Below are positions 1,143-60,200 of a DNA stretch of 64,000 nt, piece after piece. The notes beneath the pieces were generated by a model that worked only from the letters and a program-made list of their open reading frames with translations, searched no databases and was not told the origin of the DNA. Origin of the DNA: Eucommia ulmoides (lineage: Eukaryota; Streptophyta; Magnoliopsida; Garryales; Eucommiaceae); contig CM028334.1 of the NCBI GenBank assembly GCA_016647705.1, positions 7,659,546 to 7,723,545 of the forward strand, in the 5' to 3' direction. The translations under genes were made by a program, and so were the position numbers. The number at the start of each line of letters is the position of its first letter. The stretch's first letter is position 1.

Positions 1143-4100
1143 CTCCTCTTTAAGTTCATTAATATTCAAACAAGCAGTCAATATGTTGAGGGCGCACTCC
1201 ATCGAAGAAGAAAGCTCTTTCTCAAACTGGCGCCGTCTATCAGGACGAGCAGCTATCTTGTAGTTGAATGCTTCCTGAAAGAAAACAAGTAGTTCCTGTA
1301 ATTGATTTGATGAATGATTGTAACTGTATTTCTTTCCATTGAAGTCAACATAGGCAAAATCAAGAAAACTGTAGCAAACTTATACAAATTATCAGTTGCC
1401 TCAGTAGAACAATAGGGACAATTAGACAAAAATAAGTAGCCGTAAAATGAGAAAAGGACTTAAGAGCTTCTGGCATTTTTTTAAGAAATGGAATTTACAT
1501 TCCAGCACAGCTGGACAAAACTCGAAACATCCAAATAGGAGTTATTGTGTGTGTCGGTGTGTGTACATACATATGCACTAAATATCCAAACATTTTAACA
1601 AATAAACTGGTCCTGATCCTTTCAAGAAAATAAACTTCGCCTGATCTTCTCAAGATATTAGTGTAACAAAGTTGGTCTAATATTCTCACAAAAATTATGT
1701 CTCCACAGTAGTTATATGGTGGATAATTTGAACACTTCAAAAAAAAAAAATTAAAACTTTTACGAATTTTCCAACAAGACGGGCAGGAACAAAATGAAGT
1801 CTGTGACAATAAAAGGAAAGACTGAATTTTCTGTCTGAAATTATTTCCAATTAAACAACATCATTGTGAAGCATATAGCATAAAAAAATTTAAAAACAAA
1901 ATAAACAAGTAACTAAATGAATATTTTACCCAAAAAAGGCAAAAATACAATTACATAGAAGTCACCTATTACTGACATTATGCTGCAGAAGGCAACTTCG
2001 ATCTGTTCATAAGCACGATAAAAATATTTAGCCTGCTTATATTGTTTTCACACACAACAATAAACGAGCTGTATACTTTAATTGTGCTTATATTGTTTTT
2101 ACACAAGTTTTTTTTCCCAAATTGCGAAATAATATTGTTTTTGTACAACATTAAGAACATATGAAATATTGTTAGAGAATATGACATTTTGACCAACTAT
2201 TCTAACAACTCCAACAATGACTTTAGTTAAAAGAAGATAATTTTATTTGGATTAATTAAAAATCATCGCCACAGCATCATAGTTTAATAGGACTGACTCC
2301 AACTTCAAAAGGAGCCACTTTACACAAATAATACCAAGAGTTATGTGACCAAGGTTCATATTAAAAATACAGCTTTTAGAACCCATCAATGCATTGTCAA
2401 GTATCAACGCTGTATAAAGCAACAGTTACAAACAAAGGCATATTATATACTCCACAGTTAACGCTCATATTTGCATTCACTTTGCTTTGGATGGAAGTGG
2501 AACATAGAAGCAGTTTTCAGACCTAGTACAATTCAAAAATTAAGAAACAGAAGCATGATGCAAACATCTAGAACTTTTCCTATACAGCTTCTGCACACAT
2601 TTGTGTAACTGCACCTAGACTTGCATTTGTTTTAGTTAAGACTTGTACTAGTTCCATAAGGCGAGTTTTTAACAGAACTTGAATTTAGCTAGGACTACAA
2701 CCCACCTCTACCTTGACCAGTATAACGTTGCAAACAAGTTTACAGTTAACTATGATGAAATTTGCATATAATATACCTCCGGCAACACTCTTAGAAGCTC
2801 CATAAAACTTGGTATATATTCAGGATGAGAATTCATCTCGCTACTAAGCCAATTAACAATGCCACCATCTCCCCAGTCTTTTGCAGGAACATGAACAGCC
2901 AATGCGGCCACCGCAAGGCTAATCTACACATCAACAAAGTTAAGCACAATTATACTCGTATTATTTTTTTTTTAAAAAAAAAAAAAAGAGCGATGATATG
3001 GGTGGAAGTCTTAAATGAAATAAATAAATGTACCTGGGTCCTAACTTTAGGAGGGCCCTTGTGAAATGTTTTCAATAAGGTCTGCATTGGAAAACACACA
3101 TAACAACATATTAAGCATATTTCAAAGCCTCAAAAGAAATACTTGTGCCGTAGAGGTGTGTAAAAGCAAATAAAGGGGGAATAGAGGGAAAGCTCAAAAC
3201 ATGCAAGGCCAACGCAGGCCAGGTGCAGCATCGAGTTGAGCATTAAGCAGTTCAAAGTCTTGAGAATGTAAGATGCTACAATTTTTTTGAAAAATATGTC
3301 CTCTATTTAATTAGTGAAGAGATTTGGAATGAATTAAACTAAGTTATTTTGAGAGCAAATTCCTTTTTTGAAACTTGACAGTATGAATGTCAATTCATCT
3401 ACAAGCTATTTTGAGATTTTCCTTCCCTTTTTTTTATATAAAAGCAAGACAGGCCAGGGCTTAAATGGATGGAAACAAGATCCCTGTTAAATTCTCAAGA
3501 GTGTAATTTCATTTTAAGGATTCCTGCTACTAAAATTCTCACACTTCTTATATGCGGAGACAACATCAAACTACAACACATAATACCTGTTAGCATATGA
3601 GAAATCACACATGAACAAAAGCAACTTAAAATTAAGTTTCAAAATAAGATCAAGACAGAACTTCAATTCTCGTAACTACTGCTGAAGCAATTCACCTTTG
3701 TTTTTGCAACCATGTTCGGCTCAAAAGCAGAACAACGAAAAGATCACTCTATGAAGCAAAATTATGATATTAATGGTGCATTGATAAGTAAACATCTAAT
3801 CATGATGAGCATAAATTTTCAAAAGACAGCATGTTCAGATGCATAGAAGTATGAATAATAACTCACATTTAAAGAATCTCGTAATGGGCAAAAAGCTTCA
3901 GAAGGAAGTTCCTCAAAATCTCGTTGTACCTAACAGTAATACACAATGCAGTGACGCACTAAGCTTTAATTATAAAATTGAAAAAGAATATCATTGGCAT
4001 AATAAGTTGATAGGCTTAACAAACATGCAAGCATCATATACAGTAAAATTCAAGGTTCATGCATTGAAAATCCAAGTGAATCAACGGAAAAAGGCCAATA

Positions 4101-7100
4101 GAATGAAGAACAAAAAGATTACCTTGCTTCTCAGAGTTTGAGAACAGAAGATCAAAGTTTCTAGGTTACTACCAGAATCATGAAGCAAGTTATCAGCAAC
4201 CTAAAAACGAAGATTTATAATAAACTTAAAATTAATATAAAGAGTACCAGAAAAATCTCAAAGCACGATAATCATGACTAAATAAAAATTACTCAAATGG
4301 GAGGAAAATGTATTTCAGAGCAGTCTACAATTATACATGGTGTTTCCAAGTAAAGAATATGCTAGAGGCTTATAAACATATGGCCCGGCCCCGGACTCGC
4401 CAGGCCCGATACCGGGTCATTTCTGCTTCTAGGCTTGCCCATTAAATTATCATGGTTTCTATAGTGAAGATTAAGACAACAATTATTCCAGGTTCAATGA
4501 GATGCAATAAATAGAAACAAAGAAGGCACTATCAGATCAATCACACAAAAAATACACAAGGCTACGTGGTTCGCTAGGCTACGTCACAGAGTTCTGGAGG
4601 TTTTATAATATTCCGAAAGCAAAAATCTTACACTGAGTTATGATAGACGGCCAGCCTTAGTGTGTGTTTATATAATATAAATTCACAGCATACATGTGCA
4701 TTCAAATGTAGTCTACAGTTCACCAACGGGTTGGGCTAGTGTACAAAAAAAAAATCCATGGTCTGTACAAAATAGATCAGTAATAAACAGAAACGAAAAA
4801 GGCTTTCAAGATCAATCACACACAAAAAAGACACGAGACTATGTGATTCAGTGGGCTATATCACGGAGTTGTTGCAGTTTTGTTATATTTCAAAAACGAA
4901 AAATTCACATGAGTTACAGACAGCAAGTCATAGTGCGTCTATATGTATAATGAAAATTTGTGACGCACCAATATACTGTATTGATTAGCGGGCTTAGGCC
5001 AATTGTACGAAATATATCAATGGCCTTGAGCCTAATGTGCAAAATAGATCTGAAGGCTTAGGCCATAAACGAATCAATTGTCTCCTAGTCTTCATTTTCT
5101 TTCCCTTTTTTGTCTTCACCCCTTTTTACCTTCTAAAGAAGCAAAGGATATTGTAAACAACAGCAATAACTTTCATCCTTAATGACGCTTCTTTGATAAG
5201 TCAACTCAACAGTCAACTCAACAACCCTAAAGCAACAGAAAATCGAAGTAGTATTCTTGGGTAAATGGTCAACGCCACCAAGAGACTTCACAGATAGCCT
5301 CAAAGCATTTTTGTCATTCCCCCTCAACTAATCCCACACACGCTCAAGTGAAAAAAAAATAGAGAAAGAAAAACAGTATTGCTGCAGAAGTATCATTTAG
5401 ATTAACTAAAAAGTTGAGGATACCACTTTCCTGGTCAGAAATATAGCTATTCACCTAGACGACATTAAATAACTTCTTGTTAAGGGAGCACATTACCAAG
5501 TGTTAAAGGGTAATTATGTCATTCCTATATTAATTAGGGTTTTTGTATTGTTTCCTAAGTTCTATTATAAATGGAGAGAGAGATTAGCACAATTGTTAAA
5601 CCTTCTCAGTCTTTTCATATCCTCTTCTTATTTTAACAGGTATCAAGAGCAAGTTATGGCACACTAATCCCACATGTCTGTTCAACCATTATTTTAATTT
5701 TTTTCCCTTCCCTCTCTTTCAATTTTTTTCCTCACCATCCGTACGGAAAAAAAGGGTTCTGAAACCCTAGTCGCCGCCGTCAGTCTGAAGCCCTAAATCG
5801 CCGTCAACCAGCCCACAAGCCCAAACCCGCCGTCGTCCAAGCCAAATCCAGCATTTTCCGTACCGTTCCTCTGCGTTCGTGGCCATTGCTGCACCATTCC
5901 AACGCCTCTACCACCGTCGTCGATGCTCTCACTACCCACCTCCAACACCCACAGTCGCACCGTCTCTCTCCAATCTACTGCCTCCGATGATGGCTTGCAA
6001 AAACAGTTAAGTTGGTCCTTTTATTTCATTAAAAAACATAGGGAAAAAAACAATTAAAAAAATCTTATTTGATGTCTTAAATTATTTGTTTATATTAATT
6101 TATGTAAACTTTTTTTTTTGTTTTTTTTTTCTTTTGGTTCATTTCCCTCGACCATTATTGTTAGTTGTTGTATTGGAGTGTACTGTCTCATTCGTTTAAC
6201 AGGTTACTAATATCAATTGTGTCATCTCAATTTTTACACATGCGAGTTGAATGAGACCAATTACTTGCAATGGTCAAAAGTTGCGCAGGTTGCCCTTACC
6301 GGTCGAAGGAAATACGCTACCAAGACAGATTCTAATGATGAGTATTTGCAGTTCCTCCAGTTTAAGGCATTCCAAATTTTCAACTGGCACCTACCTCCAT
6401 TTACTTCTTTAGTTCAACGAGGTATCTCCACTGCATGTCTTTCCTTTCATCCTTCCTCATCCACGCCCTAGGTCATAGACTCCATTGCAATTGACTACAT
6501 GTCAAGTACCTTTTCTTTATTTACGCATGTTCAATCATTTCCCTCATTCTGTTGCTGATGGTTCTACAGTCCCTATTCGTGGTATTGGCACTGTGAAACT
6601 CCCACCCTCTCTCTTTATTCTTTATCTTGTATATTCCTTTTTTTTTAATTTGATTCTCTTTATCCTTTATCCTGTATATTCCTTTTTTTTAATTTGATTC
6701 CAGTTAGTAAACTTACTCAACAACTTAATTGTTTTGTTTCATTTTTTCCTGATTTTGTCATTATCCAGGATTTGAGAACACGGATGACAATTGGCATGGG
6801 CGTGAGAAAAATGGTCATTACTACTTTTACTATCACGACGAGACACATGTTGTCCCATCCACCGTATGTCCTACTGTTGCGTCTGCCCACCGAATTCATT
6901 GTCGCCTAGGCCATCTTTGTCTTGCCAATCTCGAGGTATTTGTTCCTAGTTTACGTCGTTTGTCCTCCTTAGATTGTGAGTCTTGTCAGTTGGGAAAGCA
7001 TCATTGTACTTCCTCTGCTTCCCCGGCTCATGTTCGACCATCGAATCCTTTTAGTCTAGTTCATTCAAATGATTGGGGCCCTTCCCATGTTGCTTCGACA

Positions 7101-10100
7101 TTACGTTTTCATTATTTCATTACGTTTGTGGATGATTTTTCAAGAGTTACATGGCTCTATTTAATGAAAGATCGTTTTGAATTATTTCTATTTTCTCTAC
7201 CTTTTGTGCTAAAATTAAAACCCAATTTACTTTGTCCGTGTGTATACTCCAAAATGATAATGCTCAAGAATATTTTTCTCAGTCCTTTACTTCTTTCATG
7301 TCACAGTCTAGTCAGTCCTCTAGTCCTCACACACTGCAGCAAAATGGAGTTGCTAATCCTAAGAATCGACATCTTCTGGACGTGATTCGAACTCTAATGT
7401 TTGAGATGAATGTTTCCAAACACTTTTAGACCGATGCAGTTCTTAGAACTTACTTTTTAATAAATAGGATGTTATCTTCTACCTTGAAAGACAAAATTCC
7501 TCATTCTATTCTTTTTCCCCAATCACCCTGGTTTGCTTTACCTCCCTGTATCTTTGGATATGTGTGTTTTGTCTGTCAATTGACTCCCGATAAGGATAAT
7601 CTAGATCCTAATGCCACAAAATGTGTTTTCCTTGGTTATTCTCGCACACAAAAGGGCTATCGATGTTATAGTCCATCTCCACGTTGCTCTTTCATCTGTG
7701 CAAATATCACCTTCATTGAGTCCACCCATTATTTTTTGTGCCCTATTCTTAGAACGATCTAAATGTGATACCTGCCAAGTTTTCCAACCACTACATCTCC
7801 GTCCATTCCCGCACCTATTACACAGTCGTCTAGAACCTCATTTGCAAGTATACTCTCGTCGCCAAAAGATCACTTCCACAATTACGCCCATCATCCCCGC
7901 ATCCTTAGATTCACCCATCCTCTTCTGATTTAGACATGCCCATTGTCATCCAAAAGGGTAAGCGCTCATGTACTGATTTATTTGAATTCTGATTTCGTCT
8001 CATATGCACACCTATCTCCATCATACTATTTCTTTGTTGATTCGTTGTCCTCAATTTCTATTCCTAACTCTGTTTTAAAGGCTCTCTCTCACCCTGGTTG
8101 GACGACCGCAATGAAGGAAGAAATGCATGTTTTACATCAAAACGGCACTTGGGACCTCGTCTTGCTTCCGCGTTTTGCTTCAGCATGGGAAAACAGTAGT
8201 TGGATGCAATACACAGTCAAAGTTCATCCGGATGGAACCATTGATCAACTCAAGTTTCGCTTAGTTGTCAAAGGTTATACTCAAATATATGGTCTTGATT
8301 ACTCTGAGATATTTTCCCCAGTGGTCAAGCTCGCCTCTATTCAATTGTTCATCTCTTTTGTTGTCACCTTTCGTTGGTTGTTACATCAACTCGACATCAA
8401 AAATGCCTTCTTGAATGATGAACTCACTGAGGAAGTTTACATAGAGCAACCTCTTGGGTTTGTTGTTCAGGGAGAGTTCGGTTTGATTTGTCACATGAAG
8501 AAATCCATTTACGGTCTCAAACAATCTCCTAAGATTCAGTGACGTGATTACTGAGTTTGGTCTACTACGATATGGAGTGGATCATTTAGTGTTTTACAGG
8601 CATGGTACAAATGGGAGAATTTCATTTATTGTGTTTGCAGATATACTGATTACCACATATGACCACAATGGTATTTAAGAGCTCAAACAATTTTTGCATG
8701 GTAAGTTTTAAACCAAATATTTGGGTTAGTTGAAATATTTCTTGAGTGTTGAGGTGGCTCAATCGAGTCGAGGCAATTTCCTCTCTCAGACGAAATATGT
8801 AATTGGTCTATTAAACGAAACAAAGATGCTAGGAGCTAAACTGATTAACCTGTCCGTGAATTCAAACACAAAAGTGTTGGTAGATCAGAGAGTACCATTG
8901 ACAGATTCAGCACGCACAATACAGATGGTTAGTGTCATCAGACAGTTCATGAATCGTCCCACAACTTATCACTGAGATGCAGTGATTCGTATCCTCCGAT
9001 ATCTAAAAGGTGATCCTGGTTGTGATTTGTTGTATTGGAACTTTTGTCACACTCAAATTAAGGGATATACAAATGCAAACTGAGTCGAATCTCCCTCGGA
9101 TAGAAAGTCCACTACGGGTGTGTTTGTTGAAGGTAATCTCGTATCTTGAAAAAGTAAAAAGCAGACAGTTGTGGCCGGTCAAGTGCAGAATCAGAACACA
9201 TAGCGATGGCTCACATCACTTGTGAGCTAACCTGGTTGAAATATCTATTAGAAGAACTTGGTTTTGAACACTCTTCACCGATAGACCTTATTTGTGATAA
9301 TCAAGCAGTTCTTCACATCACATCTAATCCAATCTTCCATGAGATAACGAAACACATAGAAGTCGATTGTCACTTCATACAGGAACAATTGTTGCAGAAA
9401 CTGATTGAGACTAGACATGTGAATTCAGTGGATCAGTTAACTGATTTATTTACCAAACCATAAGGGGGCTCAAGGATAAAATCCACTTATAACAAGCTAG
9501 GAACATACAATATATATGCTCCAACTTGAGGGGGGTGTTAAAGGGTATTATGTCATTCTTGTATTATTTCGGGTTTCCTGTATTGTTTAGGGTTTTTGTA
9601 TTGTTTCCTAATTTCTATTATAAATAGAGGGAAAGAAAAGGCTAACATAATTATTAAGCATTCTCATTCTTTTCATATTCTTTTCTTACTTTAACACTAA
9701 GGTTAAGTTCAGACCTGAAAGTTGATGATATATGCCACGATATAACAATTCCCTCTTCTTCTTTCAAAGAATTACTTGCTACTTTTCAAAGCCTATGAAC
9801 AATCAATGAATTCGAAAGCAATTTATGAAGAAAAATTACACCTTAAGGTTCTACTCGTGGAATACAAAATCTGGATTAAATAACTTGGAAAAAGATTTAG
9901 AATGAACATCCAATTGATCTCTAGGTCCCCATGTCACAAGAAAGAAAAAGGACAAGAAAAAAATATTTTATCATGTTAAGACCTCCATGATTTTATCTCA
10001 TAATTGATTGTTAAATATCCATGATTTTAGCATCTCACAATTAATTGTAAATCAACCAATCGATTAGAATTAATTTAGGAATAAATTAAGGCAATAATTT

Positions 10101-37800: not shown

Positions 37801-39354
37801 AAAAGAGAAAAATGTGGATTTAAAAAAAAAAAAATTGAAATAAAAAGAGATAATTTACACATAATTATGAAATTATTGTACAAATAACCATTTAAAATTT
37901 CAATATATGACATATTTTTGATAAATTTTATTTATTGTTATAATTATGACCATTGTATATTCATATTTTAATTTTATAATCTCTTTGTACTGATTTTAAG
38001 ATTTTCAATCAATCACATCATTTATAGTAAAATTATCAAAGTTTTATTTTCAGTCTCAATATACTTTTATACTAGTTTTAGCCATGTGAGAATGTCCAGG
38101 TTAATAAAAAATAAATTTATATTAATTAAATTTTAATATTGAAACAAGAGATATTTAGGTATCATTTTATTATTTTGGTAATAATAACATAGATTTCAAG
38201 ATTTGAAATTGGGATGGTAAATGGACACATGCAATTTTTGTTGACTTTTTCAAGCTTTTATTTTTAATGTTCTCACGAAAGAGAATGATTTCAAACCATT
38301 TGTATTTTCTATTGAATATATGAGTTTATTGATAGGAGAGATTGTTCTTTCAAGTATATTCATTAAATATCTTTTTGCACAATAAAATAAGTCAAAAAGG
38401 TTGATTTGTATTTAATAAATAATAAGAAAGACCGATGATTTTAGAAAAAGTAACATTGGACTATTTTACTTTGAGATAAGATGACAGTGGAAAGAAGTGA
38501 CAATTGACAAGTACCCGATAGGGGTAATTACACCTACACAGTTACACTCCATTTACACCTTTTCAATTATAATGAAATTTTATATATATTTCCTCAACTT
38601 TTAAAATTATCACAGACACTCCTCGTCAGAATTTTTTTTTTAATGAATTATCTATTTTGCCTTTACTAATTCAAAAATAAAAAAATAATTTAAAATGACA
38701 AATGACCAAATTGCCCTTATCCCTTTCCTTCACAATTTCCTTCTTTTTTTTCTTTTTCTTTTCATCTTGGGTTAATGACACTCCATACCCATCAAATTGC
38801 GGTTTCTTTTTTTCCCTAATCTTTTTTCCTTGTTATTTCCTCTTCATCTCCGGCGGCGGGAAACCCGAACAGAACCAAAGGCTTCGGCGGCGAGGAGGGC
38901 GGCGAATCGGTTCCCGTCCCTGATTCTTTCTCTCTCTCTCTCTCCCTTCTTCACCGGAGCAAAACCCACAAACACCAAAACTGAACCAAACAACTCCACC
39001 ATCACCGAACCAAAGATAGAGACAGAGACAGAGACGAAGAGATGAGTTCAGATGAATATGGCTATCTCCATTTTCTCATCACCCAAACAACACGAAATCA
39101 CAAAGAAAGTCACCCTAACATTATATATCCACACAAAAACGAGATAGATGCAGACATATATACCATTCACAAAAAAACGATGGCGAGGAGGAAAGTGAAA
39201 GCTGGAACAAGGTTGCTGATGGGGGAATCAAGAACAATTTTGTCATGAATTAGCCAATTAAAAAGACAAGATTCTGGGGAAATTCAAAATTCAATTACCA
39301 GAGGAGAACAATTTTGCAAAGAATGGAGAAATTCAGAAGGGGAAGCACACTTGA

Positions 39355-39490
39355 TTCGTGTATGAGCTCGATTTCGCGGATGATTATTTTGATTTCGTCT
39401 TCTCCAGAGCTCTTGATAGGGTTTCTGTCCCACCTCTTATCATCCGCGAGATCGAACGAGTCTTGAGACCTAGCGGCAGCTTGATTAGGT
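39355..39490 (+). pseudogene. Captured fragment of a SAM-dependent methyltransferase gene
   Basis: The frame reads DFADDYFDFVFSRALDRVSV and then REIERVLRPSGSLIR, matching the region of class I methyltransferases (Methyltransf_11) that contains the D-x-FD strand and the ExxRVLRPGG turn. Only about 45 residues are present and the SAM-binding GxGxG motif is absent, so it cannot be active. The segment GTCAGTCTCTCTC...CTTCAG just after it may be part of an intron taken along. Confidence 0.7.
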
Positions 39491-39546
39491 CAGTCTCTCT
39501 CTTTCTCTCTCTTCAGGAGGAATAGGACTTATTTTTGGAACCCTAA

Positions 39547-39897
39547 TCACTGGGAATCAGCTTACACTTCGCCAAAACCGCTGACGATTTCGAAGAGGCT
39601 CTTAAAAACAAGGGCCAACTTCCGCTTCGAGTATGGTCCTCCCTGATGAGAGGCTTCGGCATGGACAAGCGGCTGGATTTGGTCATGATTCTTCTCGAAT
39701 GGCTGAAAAGAAATAAGAAACAAACCGGTGGTTCGATCGGACCGAACCTCTTCATATACAACAGCCTTCTAGGTGCGATCAAACAGTCCGATCAATTCGA
39801 AGAAGTAGACAAAGTGACGAACGACATGGCTGATGAAGGTGTGCTCCCCGATTTCGGTGTTCGCCGTCGGCGGTGGTGTGGTGGATTTGGGGCTTGA
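39547..39897 (+). pseudogene. Captured fragment of a PPR protein gene
   Basis: An open frame of about 115 residues: LHFAKTADDFEEALKNKGQL, then LRVWSSLMRGFGMDKRLDL, LFIYNSLLGAIKQSDQFEEV and DKVTNDMADEGVLPD. This is pentatricopeptide wording (the Y-N-S-L-L-G-A-I repeat start and the M-x-x-E-G-V-L-P-D repeat end). It stops soon after leaving similarity (RRRRWCGGFGA). Full PPR genes have many more repeats. It directly follows the methyltransferase piece, so the two probably come from different loci. Confidence 0.75.
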
Positions 39898-40278
39898 ACA
39901 AAGAACATGGCTGAAGGCCTAAAAAAGAAACCCTTTAATTACATTATGTACCCTTAAAGTTTTATTAGGTTATATTTTGAACCATCACATTTAAAACATA
40001 AAACAAAGATAATTTAGTCTTTAAAGGAAGAGAATAGGGTTAATTTAGTAAAAATAAATGTGAGTTGACTTTTCAAAAGATATTTTCGGAGGAATAAAAA
40101 ATGAATAGGGGTTTTCATTGAGCTTTGACTAAATAATTGAAGGATGTCTCATGTAATTTTAAAAATTGAAGGGATTTTCGTAATCACGGTCAATAGTTGG
40201 AGGGGGGGGGGGGGGGATGTAAGTAGAATTATTCCATACCCAATATATTCACACTAAAATTAGTAAGATTAATTATAA

Positions 40279-42016
40279 GGGGCGGTTATCAAGAAGTCCT
40301 CATACGAGGACAAAATCATCAAATACACATTTTTTAAAAAACATGTTACAAAATAGTTATTTTGACTTTTTATGACGATTTTACCCCTTATGTTATATTT
40401 AACACAAGAGTCATGTTATATTCAACACGATCTCGTGTTGAATATAACATAAGGTCGTATTACATTCTAATTTTTTCATCATTCAATACAATTTCAAATT
40501 GTGTTATATTCTATTTTTTTTATTCAAGTTGATAATTTCTCTATCCTAAATTCATATTGATATTCAACACAATCTTGTGTTATATTCAACATGATCTCAT
40601 GTTAGAATATAACACGAGATCGTATTATATTCCACTTTCATCGTGGTATTCAACACAACATCATGTTACAATCCAATTTTTTCATTCAAATTGATAATTT
40701 CTCTCTCCTATATTCATATGCTTGATTTTTACCGATACAAACTAAATCAATCTAATCAAATGAATCCTAAATTCTATTCAAATCAACCAAATCAATCCAA
40801 ATAAATTAACTAAATCAATACAAATCTTAGAAAAATCATTTTGAATCAGAAAATCGTGTCGAATCCAAGGGAAATTTTCATATTTTCTTTGTGTGAATCC
40901 AAAAGTTTTAAATTATGGCTTCTGCAATTGTATCAAATTAAGATCTGATCGATTCATCTTTTCAATTCCGCTCTCGATCCAAGCGGTGTAGCCAAGAACA
41001 AAAATTGCCAGTGTAATCAAGAAATTTTCATGGCCGTTGTGTAATCAAGAAACAAAAACACAATTCAATTAAAATCTTTCTTCAAATTGGGATTTTTATT
41101 TCTGAGTATCGAATTAATGTTTTGTGATTATTACCAGTCATGTCCGAGAACAAAATTTGGCCAGAACATTGTTCCCTGAGCAGCTCAGTAGAGCGGCCAA
41201 ACGACCCAATTGTTGAAGTAAATCGCCATTGCCATCAGTCCGAGCACAACAGCAGCATCTCTCAAAACATAACTCATGGATCTCCATGGACTCTTCACCT
41301 AGCAATGCTTGGGAATGGCAGCTCTAATCTCGGCGATTTTGAATGGCGGAAGGGCACTTGGGTCAAAATCGCCATTTTCAGTTCCGTTCACAACTTTTCC
41401 ATTAGCTTCCTTCTCTGACCATTTTGGGATCTAGGTCTTTAAATCTGTCAAGATCCATAATCGGTCATAAAACGAAGCAAGAGAATCTGCAACGGATTTT
41501 TCAAGCTTTTGATAGTGACGATCCAATCCCAACCCTAGGTCTTCAATTCGCCATCTAATGGCAATGATTGAATCAATTCACCGTCGCGGGCACCAAATGA
41601 AATCGAAGAGACGACGGCAACGAAGGCTACGACAACGAAATCGAAGCGACGACGGCGGAGGCTGGCGACGGCTAGACGACGCGATGGCAATGGATGAAGG
41701 AGAGGGACTGGGCTGGATCTGTGACGGTATGTGAGTGTGCGATGAAGCGAGCCGCCGCCATCGTTGGGTGGAAAAAAAATTGTCGTTGTCGTTGCCATGG
41801 TGGTGGTTTCGTAGGGACAGTTGCCAAGAAGGTTAGAGAGGTAGATTAGATCGTGAGGGTGTGAACAGAGAAGGGTATAATGGGCAAATCAAATAAATTA
41901 GGACTATTATGTGCAAAGTACTGCCTTTTTGGGGATTATTGTGTGCAAAAAAAAATTATGTGGGTTTATTTGGTAGATTTTGTCTTTTATTTAGATTTTT
42001 TTTTGTATTTTCCCCT
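40279..42016. mobile_element. Second non-autonomous MULE, adjacent to the Pack-MULE
   Basis: A perfect target duplication TAATTATAA (40270-40278 and 42017-42025; one more matching base allows a one-base shift). The ends are diverged inverted repeats: left GGGGCGGTTATCAAG with GACAAAATCATCAAATACAC further in, right on the minus strand GGGGAAAATACAAAA with GACAAAATCTACCAAATAAA. The interior has a palindrome-rich part (40.38-40.7 kb), a middle part with a frame at 41140-41418 of no known family, and a GC-rich coding-like part on the minus strand (41535-41798, starting MATTTTIFFPPNDGGGSLHR), perhaps a captured exon. No transposase. Confidence 0.8.
40413..40450. repeat. Perfect 38-base palindrome in the second MULE
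   Basis: ATGTTATATTCAACACGA, two central bases, then its exact reverse complement, giving 18-base arms. Partial copies of the same words (AACACGAGATCGTATTAT, TATTCAACACAATCTTGTG) recur to about 40.68 kb. Confidence 0.9.
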
Positions 42017-57200: not shown

Positions 57201-60200
57201 AATAAACCTTATCCTCGTTTTCCTCTTCCCTTTGATTCTGTTATTAGATGATCTTAAAACACAATGGAGGTATGGTGTTCGTGTAGTAAACTATTCAGCA
57301 AAATTGCCCTATTTCTAAGATTATACTTGGGCTTCCCATTCATAAAACTGATGTATTCTTGTAAGAAATCCAAGGAAATTTACTGTTATTTTCTTCATTA
57401 GATCATCAATATTGTAATGAGGGCATCTTTAGAGTATACCGAATCAATATAGCTATCCTTCTGACACAGCAACGCAATTGGAATCAATAGCGAAAGTAAA
57501 GAAAACAGAAGATTAGAGTCACCTCGTACCTGTTTCAGCATTTGTACCAAATTATGCTTTCTTGCATTCAAAATCTTTAATTTCTCCTCAACCTCATTTT
57601 TCCTTTTCTCCTTATCAATTGATGTATCCTGTTTGTTGGTAGCCTGATAAGCAAAACATTACAGATCAAACCGTCAGTTATCAGACCTTAAAGAGGGGTA
57701 ATGTAGTTTCTTGCCCCCAAAAGAGTTATTGTTGATCAATATATCGTTGGGATCGAACTTGAGTTCCAACAACATAACAAATAAATCGAAAGCAAAGAAC
57801 ATCAAAGATTCAAGAACAAGAAGAGAAAAAACACAAGGATTGAACGTGGTGCAACGTAAATCTATTTCAAGCTACAAGAAGATATCAACTATATTAATAG
57901 AAGAGAGATTGACAAGAACAATCTCAAAGGAGGCTATACAATTTCGCACACACTTAAACCCTAGGTGTTATCTATTTATTGAACCCAACAAAACACTCCT
58001 AGCCGCAATAGGAAACAAAGGAAAAAGGGCAGAGGTGGCATTGGCAATCCGGACGCCCATTTCCAGCATCCAGAAGCACATCGTAGCCATCCAGATGCCT
58101 ATTGGGGCCGTCCGGACGCTCCTAGATCAAGGGGGCATAACCATTTGAACGTCCGATGGGGCCATCCAAATGCCTCATGTGTCGAGGGCTTTACCCTCTG
58201 CACGCCCATTTTTTGCATCCAAACAAATGCATTCTTATTACCCAGACGCATTTCTGACTTCAATTCCAACAATCCCTTAATTTGGAAGCAAACCATGTTG
58301 TCTGTAAAGTGTAAACTTTCTCTCTCCAACTCCCGCTCGATTAGAGAACTCTCTACCACCGTGATCCCCTCTTCTTGAGGTCACCTTGAAACTACCTTTC
58401 AAGGCCAACTGAAACTGCACAAAACCTCAGTTTGTCAAACATCACTGTCTTCCTCAACATGTCCCGAGGTTCTTTGGAGTATGGATTTTCTCAAGTGCAG
58501 TCGATAGGGCTGAACAAAATTACCCGTGGCCCAATTAACCCGCCCAATCCAAATGAAATCTGCACGATGTTGGTCCAAATCGTATTGTTTGCACTCAGTT
58601 TGCAAGTAGCTGATTGGGCGAACCAGATCAATCTCGGTAGGGAAACAGTTGCAAATATTGAAGCCTTCGAGTGTACCTTCCCTGCCTGATGAGGCCTAAA
58701 TTGACCACATTTTTGGAGTGAATATAAACAAAGCCCTTAGGGTTTCTCCTTCAACATTGTAAGTCGCCTCACAAAGTCACTAACCTTCCTCAATCTCTCT
58801 CTCTCAATCTGGGTTCTAATCTTTCAAGTCCTCTCTCGGCCTCTTTTTTAATTCTCAAAGAATGGAAGGGTGTAGGGAAATCAAACTTCTTCAAGGATTG
58901 AAAACGAAATTGCTGGTATAGTCCACATCATCAACTCCACTGCTCGAGACTCCATCACCCTTCTTCGTTCATCACTTTCACTTGCCACATCAGTTAATTT
59001 TTTCGTGATGTTCTATTGATGATTGTTTGTGTGCAAATTATTTTGATATTTTCTTTGTATTTTCTTTTTGAATTTCGGATTAATCTGATACCTGACGATC
59101 CGGCAGATCAATGTCCAATCAGAATCACTAAAACTGTGGTCAGCTTGCAACTTATGAGTGTTGATTTAAGGATTGTTCGGTTCGGCTGCCGGATTTGGCT
59201 CATAATCGAACCATCCAATTGTTACTTAGCCCTGAGCCTTCCTGCAACAAAGGCCGAATGAAGTTGAATTTGATTTCGATATGCTTTGTCCTCAAAAGGC
59301 AAACTAAATTCTTTCCCAAGTGTAAAGTGTTTTGACTTTTGCGATACAACTTGGGATCCTTCTGAACTTGACCCAACTCTTCCATTACATGACCAAGGAC
59401 ACCATCTCCTTTCACGTCTATGTAGCTGTAATATAGTCCGCTTCGGTTGTTGATATGACCACCACATTTGACAACCGAGATATCCAACTTACCACAACAA
59501 TACTAAAGGTAAATACGTGTCTGTGGTGCTCCTCCTGCTGTCAATGTCGCCCGCTAGATTTGAATCAACATATCCTCGAAAGCTAACAATGTCACTTCCA
59601 CAATATAACACTCAATCTGTGATATCAACAAGATACCAAAAGATCCACTTGAATGCCTTCCCGAGATCGCTCATAAATCTACTCACAACTCTTAGTACAT
59701 GAGCAATGTCTAATGCGTGCAAACTATGGTATACATAAGGCTTCCGATAGCAAAAGAATACGACACTTTAGTCATCTCCTCACGTTCTTCATCTGTTATC
59801 AGTGATTGTTCCTTGGAAAATTTAAATTGCCCAGCTAGTGGTATGACAAGTGCCAACAGATTGAGTAACTTGTCCATGAACTCCGCATGTGACAATTTCA
59901 ACATTATTTTCCCGTCCCTATGGATTCGCATCCCTAGGATATGCTTTCTAGTGCCAAGATTCTTCATCACGAACTCCTTGGACAATATCCTTTTAAGAAT
60001 AAAGATCTCATCCATGCTAGGGTCTACACCTAGCATATTATCTACATCAAGAAGGATTGGTTTCTTTGAACTAACAATAATGATTATAATTACACTTAGA
60101 AAGCCGTTGTTCTTCATAATGTCAAACTTTTTATACCACGGTGTTTGAGCTTGTTTCAAGCCGTACAAAGACTACAAGCTGAGAAGATCTCAGCTTACAC

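Follow-up and report, generated by a model that had tools for sequence, protein, structure and literature searches.

A Mutator-like transposon of Eucommia ulmoides carries fragments of at least four host genes, and part-built relatives suggest its stepwise assembly

The element at positions 38521-40235 of the 64,000-nucleotide stretch of Eucommia ulmoides DNA analysed here (the window, part of contig C10 in a genome of 946.7 Mb) is very probably a non-autonomous Mutator-like DNA transposon, a Pack-MULE, in which at least four unrelated host genes are represented by DNA-level fragments. It would have been moved in trans and, having spread in roughly one burst, decayed without detected selection. 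It looks to have been assembled stepwise, partly from earlier gene-carrying elements, and part-built relatives suggest the order in which some of its parts came together.

The element measures 1,715 bp and is bounded by imperfect terminal inverted repeats. The sequence and a scripted comparison place the target-site duplications at 38512-38520 (TACCCGATA) and 40237-40245 (TACCCAATA), identical at 8 of 9 bases, with one additional A at 40236 between the element end and the right duplication; a match of at least 8 of 9, small offsets allowed, has a chance of 0.275% among 20,000 random pairs of window positions. The 5' arm (38521-38760, forward strand), consisting of the terminal inverted repeat and a subterminal region, is common to other MULEs of the genome according to alignments and the terminal-motif search, and alignments show that the 3' arm (39857-40235, forward strand), with its own terminal inverted repeat, is common to other elements from about 39869 on. 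The family ends read GGG.TAATT; searched with up to 3 mismatches, the terminal motif has 159 matches in the genome versus none for the reversed pattern used as a control, so that further copies of the ends are plentiful. To the right, the element adjoins repeat DNA of near-palindromic AACACGA..TCGTGTT units (40280-40720), including a 162-bp unit present in 1.9 copies at 40414-40719; the stretch from about 40270 has at least 38 further relatives in the genome among the matches listed. Elsewhere in the window, at 6753-8542 and 59710-60171, frames resemble, by eye, Ty1-copia integrase and reverse transcriptase fragments.

Searching the genome with the element at the DNA level gave at least 47 matches (40 of 670 candidates scored), and six near-complete copies besides that of the window lie on C8, C5, C69, C11, C4 and C15. 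Both ends can be aligned across all seven copies, which occupy six independent sites, each with a 9-bp duplication: AAATTGAAT at C5 and C4, CCATAATTT at C11, TGAAACCAT at C15, GTATATAAT/ATATATAAT at C69 and, read by eye, CCTATCCAA on both sides at C8. Scripted scores were 9 of 9 at C5, C11 and C15 and 8 of 9 at C10 and C69; the score of 5 of 9 at C8 reflects a right boundary placed 2-3 bases too far out, and C4 was not scored apart from C5, with which it has its site in common. The six other copies thus confirm the imperfect inverted ends and the 9-base duplication that an initial annotation had claimed from the window alone. Since C4 and C5 have in common not only the insertion site but also the left flank (95% over 1,478 columns, the whole flank fetched) and the right flank as far as column 387 (94%), they represent one insertion that was copied by segmental or genome duplication. 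In the C15 copy (L025, C15:8142000-8150500), about 5.5 kb of nested inserted DNA interrupts the element. A genome search with the joined flanks (40 of 322 candidates scored) turned up no empty site and no match over their full length; its two best rows are the flanks of the window itself, and the rest stem from an unrelated repeat within the right flank.

Pairwise identity among the seven copies is 87-94%, and the K2P distance between copies is 0.099-0.145, with the exception of C4 and C5 (0.063). The tree of copies pairs C10 with C15, and likewise C4 with C5, but is otherwise nearly a star, with two of its four inner branches well supported and two open. This tree fits a spread in roughly one burst, from which we infer that the family expanded in this manner, some 4-9 million years ago if a rate of 0.7-1.5 x 10^-8 changes per site and year is assumed.

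The interior is more composite than the initial annotation had it, namely two fragments in the same orientation behind a leader-like segment. The methyltransferase and PPR fragments are both real, and they do lie in the same orientation, but the source genes number at least four: sequence of an F-box gene and of an EamA gene, both in reverse orientation, had gone unnoticed in the leader. From left to right, a leader segment (38917-39062, forward strand) with relatives also at C2 and C4 is followed on the reverse strand by 39066-39175, of which 39066-39174 matches at 90% a region beside an exon of an F-box gene on C17 (L063; F-box 34.6 bits, cut-off 20.5). By eye, we read this region as an intron, and likewise see in the exon of the C17 gene a LysM-like stretch, for which Pfam reports no LysM. 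Next, also on the reverse strand, come parts of exon 3, intron 2 and exon 2 of an EamA-type transporter gene (39174-39355), of which about 75-79 bp are missing inside. The parent-type genes, of the WAT1 type, form a cluster on C15 at 1.88-2.17 Mb (two genes fetched, L059 and L060); exons 1-3 of one of them, joined at splice sites chosen by hand, score 32.3 bits for EamA (cut-off 28.2). The methyltransferase fragment (39353-39514, forward strand) lacks about 40 bp inside, ends in a (CT)n tract and scores 31.8 bits for Pfam Methyltransf_11 (cut-off 21.2). Its parent on C5 (C5:33444081-33445448), a 456-codon frame that scores for Methyltransf_11 and DUF7870, is 87% identical over 39353-39478 and 85% over 39474-39514.

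The PPR part (PPR_2, 33 bits, cut-off 30) is genuine as well, but it consists of two forward-strand pieces, 39515-39547 and 39548-39856, joined out of frame across 205 bp that are absent relative to the parent. They correspond to C15:790814-790846 and C15:791052-791360 and are 94% and 89% identical to positions 4315-4347 and 4553-4861 of L032; the parent is a 723-codon frame with eight PPR_2 stretches. All four parents are separate loci, those of the PPR and EamA pieces lying about 1 Mb apart on C15, and the methyltransferase and PPR parents, on C5 and C15, are at different loci as the initial annotation had expected. Protein searches (13 matches among 89 scored candidates, and 9 among 12) returned no single host gene that contains both parts; only copies of the family hold both.

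Should the element have any effect on its host, the most plausible one, judged from sequence, would be to supply RNA that matches the parent genes. The window copy has perfect 21-mers in common with all four parent loci (32 with the PPR gene, 3 with the methyltransferase gene, 19 with the EamA locus and 10 with the F-box locus; shared 21-mer and 24-mer counts exclude low-complexity words), and whichever end transcription started from, the RNA would be antisense to two of these loci, because the pieces are oppositely oriented. That the element acts through small RNA against its parents, as proposed in the initial annotation, nevertheless seems unlikely: three of the seven copies have no 21-mer in common with the methyltransferase gene, three have none with the F-box locus and one has none with the EamA locus, and the F-box part would be intron.

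The fragments were taken up as DNA. At first the gaps in the PPR part (205 bp), on the F-box side (about 270 bp) and in the EamA part (about 75 bp) resembled introns, as if spliced RNA had been captured. This reading is rejected: the 205 bp are coding in the PPR parent, and the EamA gap straddles an intron-exon boundary, the remainder of that intron being kept. Since part of the EamA intron is retained and the missing stretches cut exons, capture was from DNA. The fragments may have entered by repair or template switching, in part perhaps by exchange with older gene-carrying elements in which the F-box and EamA pieces were already joined and trimmed.

It is from relatives of the element that some of the order of these events can be read. 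In alignments of 39066-39355, the element L058 on C6 (26.04 Mb) joins F-box and EamA sequence and has neither of two deletions, L031 on C2 has only the one in EamA exon 3, and L030 (C6:1.03 Mb) and the window copy have this deletion plus one of about 270 bp on the F-box side, with identical endpoints. The family, which has the methyltransferase and PPR pieces in addition, comes last in this series. Homology to the F-box gene is confined to the first part of the 270-bp stretch, beyond which lies, among other sequence, an LRR-like segment below the cut-off (Pfam LRR_1, E=0.027). L030 has sequence in common with the family only over 38603-39345, and its right end was not identified in alignments with the family. 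L058 (752-2560 of C6:26041500-26045000) carries the F-box-side and EamA pieces between long inverted ends of a different family, and its subterminal repeat, the homologue of 38924-39001 in the leader, is present at both ends in opposite orientation.

The methyltransferase piece has a relative of its own in L035 (C15:43942000-43950000, element at about 3069-4762), in which about 670 bp of this gene lie between arms that distantly resemble the family's (66-74%); inspection of its ends revealed no clear duplication. When the gene, the family and L035 are compared with 3 columns skipped, the family and L035 agree against the gene at 11 sites, the family and the gene agree against L035 at 5, the gene and L035 agree at 1, and 106 sites are the same. 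Such a pattern at the 11 sites could also stem from changes that the gene underwent once the piece had been captured, the paralogues of the methyltransferase (27-38% identical) providing no outgroup close enough to polarise them.

On the right side, four elements, here termed B, have the 5' arm and approximately the last 117 bp of the PPR piece in common with the family and a different interior. Three of them also have the right arm in common, the one on C3 being without it, and duplications of 8-9 of 9 bases flank three of the four. The 3' breakpoint of the PPR piece is identical in B elements and family. Over the overlap, columns with weak majorities being dropped, 13 differences from the parent are common to family and B; a second PPR locus agrees with the parent at 6 of these, with the family at 5 and with neither at 2. 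The family and the parent agree against B at 1 site, B and the parent agree against the family at none, all three differ at 1, and 100 sites are the same. This pattern makes a single capture of the PPR piece the most likely history, with the elements diverging afterwards in their other parts, possibly through exchange, nested insertion or repair.

It is possible that multi-gene Pack-MULEs can arise by exchange between earlier gene-carrying elements, even those of different end families, rather than by repeated gene capture, and we put this forward tentatively. The left interior would then derive from an L058-like element and the methyltransferase piece from an L035-like one, the PPR piece and right arm are those also found in B, and much of the path would survive in one genome. 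An alternative is a single complex repair event that took every fragment straight from the genes, with the partial relatives arising afterwards by deletion from the full element. Loss of internal parts is common among elements, replacement of the left interior of the full element could have produced the B elements, and L030, taken alone, could be a deletion product of the full element. However, L058 and L031 retain F-box-side and EamA sequence that is absent from the family and therefore cannot descend from it. Furthermore, the deletions are nested, with L031 having one of the two and L030 both, and L058 has different inverted ends. A single capture event thus appears improbable.

Our reading of the coding frames is that they have decayed since the family spread, with no selection detected. 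The chimera does not hold up as a protein, since a joined methyltransferase-PPR frame exists in none of the seven copies; stops or frame shifts interrupt it in all seven, and two stops (39523-39525 and 39544-39546) separate the two frames in the window copy. The PPR frame of about 115 residues that had been reported is indeed there, as 116 codons from stop to stop at 39547-39897, but its first ATG is residue 34. Substitutions among the copies are dominated by C-to-T changes. Set against the element's own non-coding spectrum, the nonsynonymous share reveals no departure from neutral decay, either for the PPR frame (67 nonsynonymous versus 42 synonymous changes, p=0.22) or for the methyltransferase frame (28 versus 14, p=0.74). 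NG86 ratios relative to the parent are 0.25-0.33 for the PPR and 0.13-0.51 for the methyltransferase piece, values that include the parent's own constraint; among the copies, the methyltransferase ratio is 0.60.

It is very doubtful that the PPR frame is used, with some copies making a short protein under weak selection. The frame is open in five of the seven copies, its NG86 dN/dS among copies is 0.43, and it contains 2 stops where the non-coding rate predicts 8.9, or about 6 if scaled to the 109 changes seen in the PPR piece (154 are expected from the non-coding part). The other two frames have 6 stops versus 11.8 predicted and 18 versus 16.2. Moreover, alignment of the seven copies leaves the PPR (309 columns) and methyltransferase (126 columns) pieces free of gaps, whereas the EamA piece (188 columns) has 3 gap runs and the F-box piece (124 columns) has 7. 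Given the fewer changes, gaps and stops, there may be weak constraint on the frames. However, the nonsynonymous share of the PPR frame is not below what the mutation spectrum predicts, a TAG lies within the frame of the C8 and C4 copies, an ATG is absent from the first 33 residues in the window copy, and mutational causes may account for fewer indels in coding DNA with few simple repeats.

The reading as a Pack-MULE, given in the initial annotation, is supported: besides its terminal repeats, duplications, seven copies and parents at other loci, it has no long frame other than the host-gene pieces. The longest frame measures 116 codons, and in Pfam searches with four frames only host-gene families scored above cut-off, so that no transposase is encoded; mobility is evident from seven copies at six sites, one of them doubled in a duplicated segment. 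A MULE transposase acting in trans would have moved the element. Matches to such transposases are abundant in the genome (at least 150 listed of 2,936 candidates), yet no autonomous element with the same ends was found among 100 of the 159 terminal motifs and 150 of the 2,936 transposase candidates; in the closest listed pair, 9.5 kb separate motif and transposase and the motif faces away, and in the next the distance is 80 kb. Among the listed matches, at least 15 MULE transposases have a 757-codon frame and an equal score of 67.5 bits, perhaps belonging to a recently active MULE family. MULEs make target-site duplications of about 9 bp (8-11), CACTA elements of 3 bp, hAT elements of 8 bp, and Helitrons none. 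The duplications at the six family sites and at three of the four B elements, together with the inverted repeats common to many copies, are those of MULEs. Although the available text of PMC8903248 describes Pack-TYPE elements from every main plant superfamily that has inverted ends, and Helitrons likewise carry gene pieces in that of PMC13317346, the 9-bp duplications at six sites and the ends GGG.TAATT make it extremely unlikely that this is a CACTA, hAT or Helitron element carrying gene fragments.

The element is otherwise ordinary and of a known kind. How inverted-end transposons combine fragments of unlinked genes is still an open question, and a 2026 review allows, in the part available to us, for 'an alternative, yet undiscovered mechanism' (PMC13317346). 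A family with surviving nested-deletion relatives makes part of the event order readable from sequence and suggests that origins be sought in older gene-carrying elements, not in genes alone. In the literature searched, outside which most subscription papers fall, we found no report of a Pack-MULE assembled from other Pack-MULEs, and no absence is claimed. The Pack-MULEs of rice (Jiang et al., 2004, as cited in the accessible portion of PMC13317346) are likewise non-autonomous MULEs with host-gene fragments from elsewhere, while in the present element at least four genes have contributed fragments, and a stepwise order shows in its surviving relatives. Among MULE-derived putative genes of Oryza, about 5-10% draw on two or more parents and the majority are said to evolve neutrally, as the text available of PMC4858842 has it; here, in contrast, there is no joined frame, there are four parents, and the relatives suggest exchange between elements. 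PM-ZIBP of tomato, as described in the excerpt consulted (PMC3310237), is likewise a multi-copy Pack-MULE family with its parent gene elsewhere, but it carries a fragment of one gene and has tandem terminal repeats in most copies. Fork stalling and template switching combined with transposition, which the available part of PMC8277862 proposes for multi-copy elements in animals, would by analogy suit the present family too. The Pack-CACTA hybrids of Arabidopsis, so far as PMC13317346 could be consulted, are likewise hybrids of two elements, but these belong to another superfamily and are closely spaced, whereas the parts of the present element match elements at distant loci, one of which has different ends.
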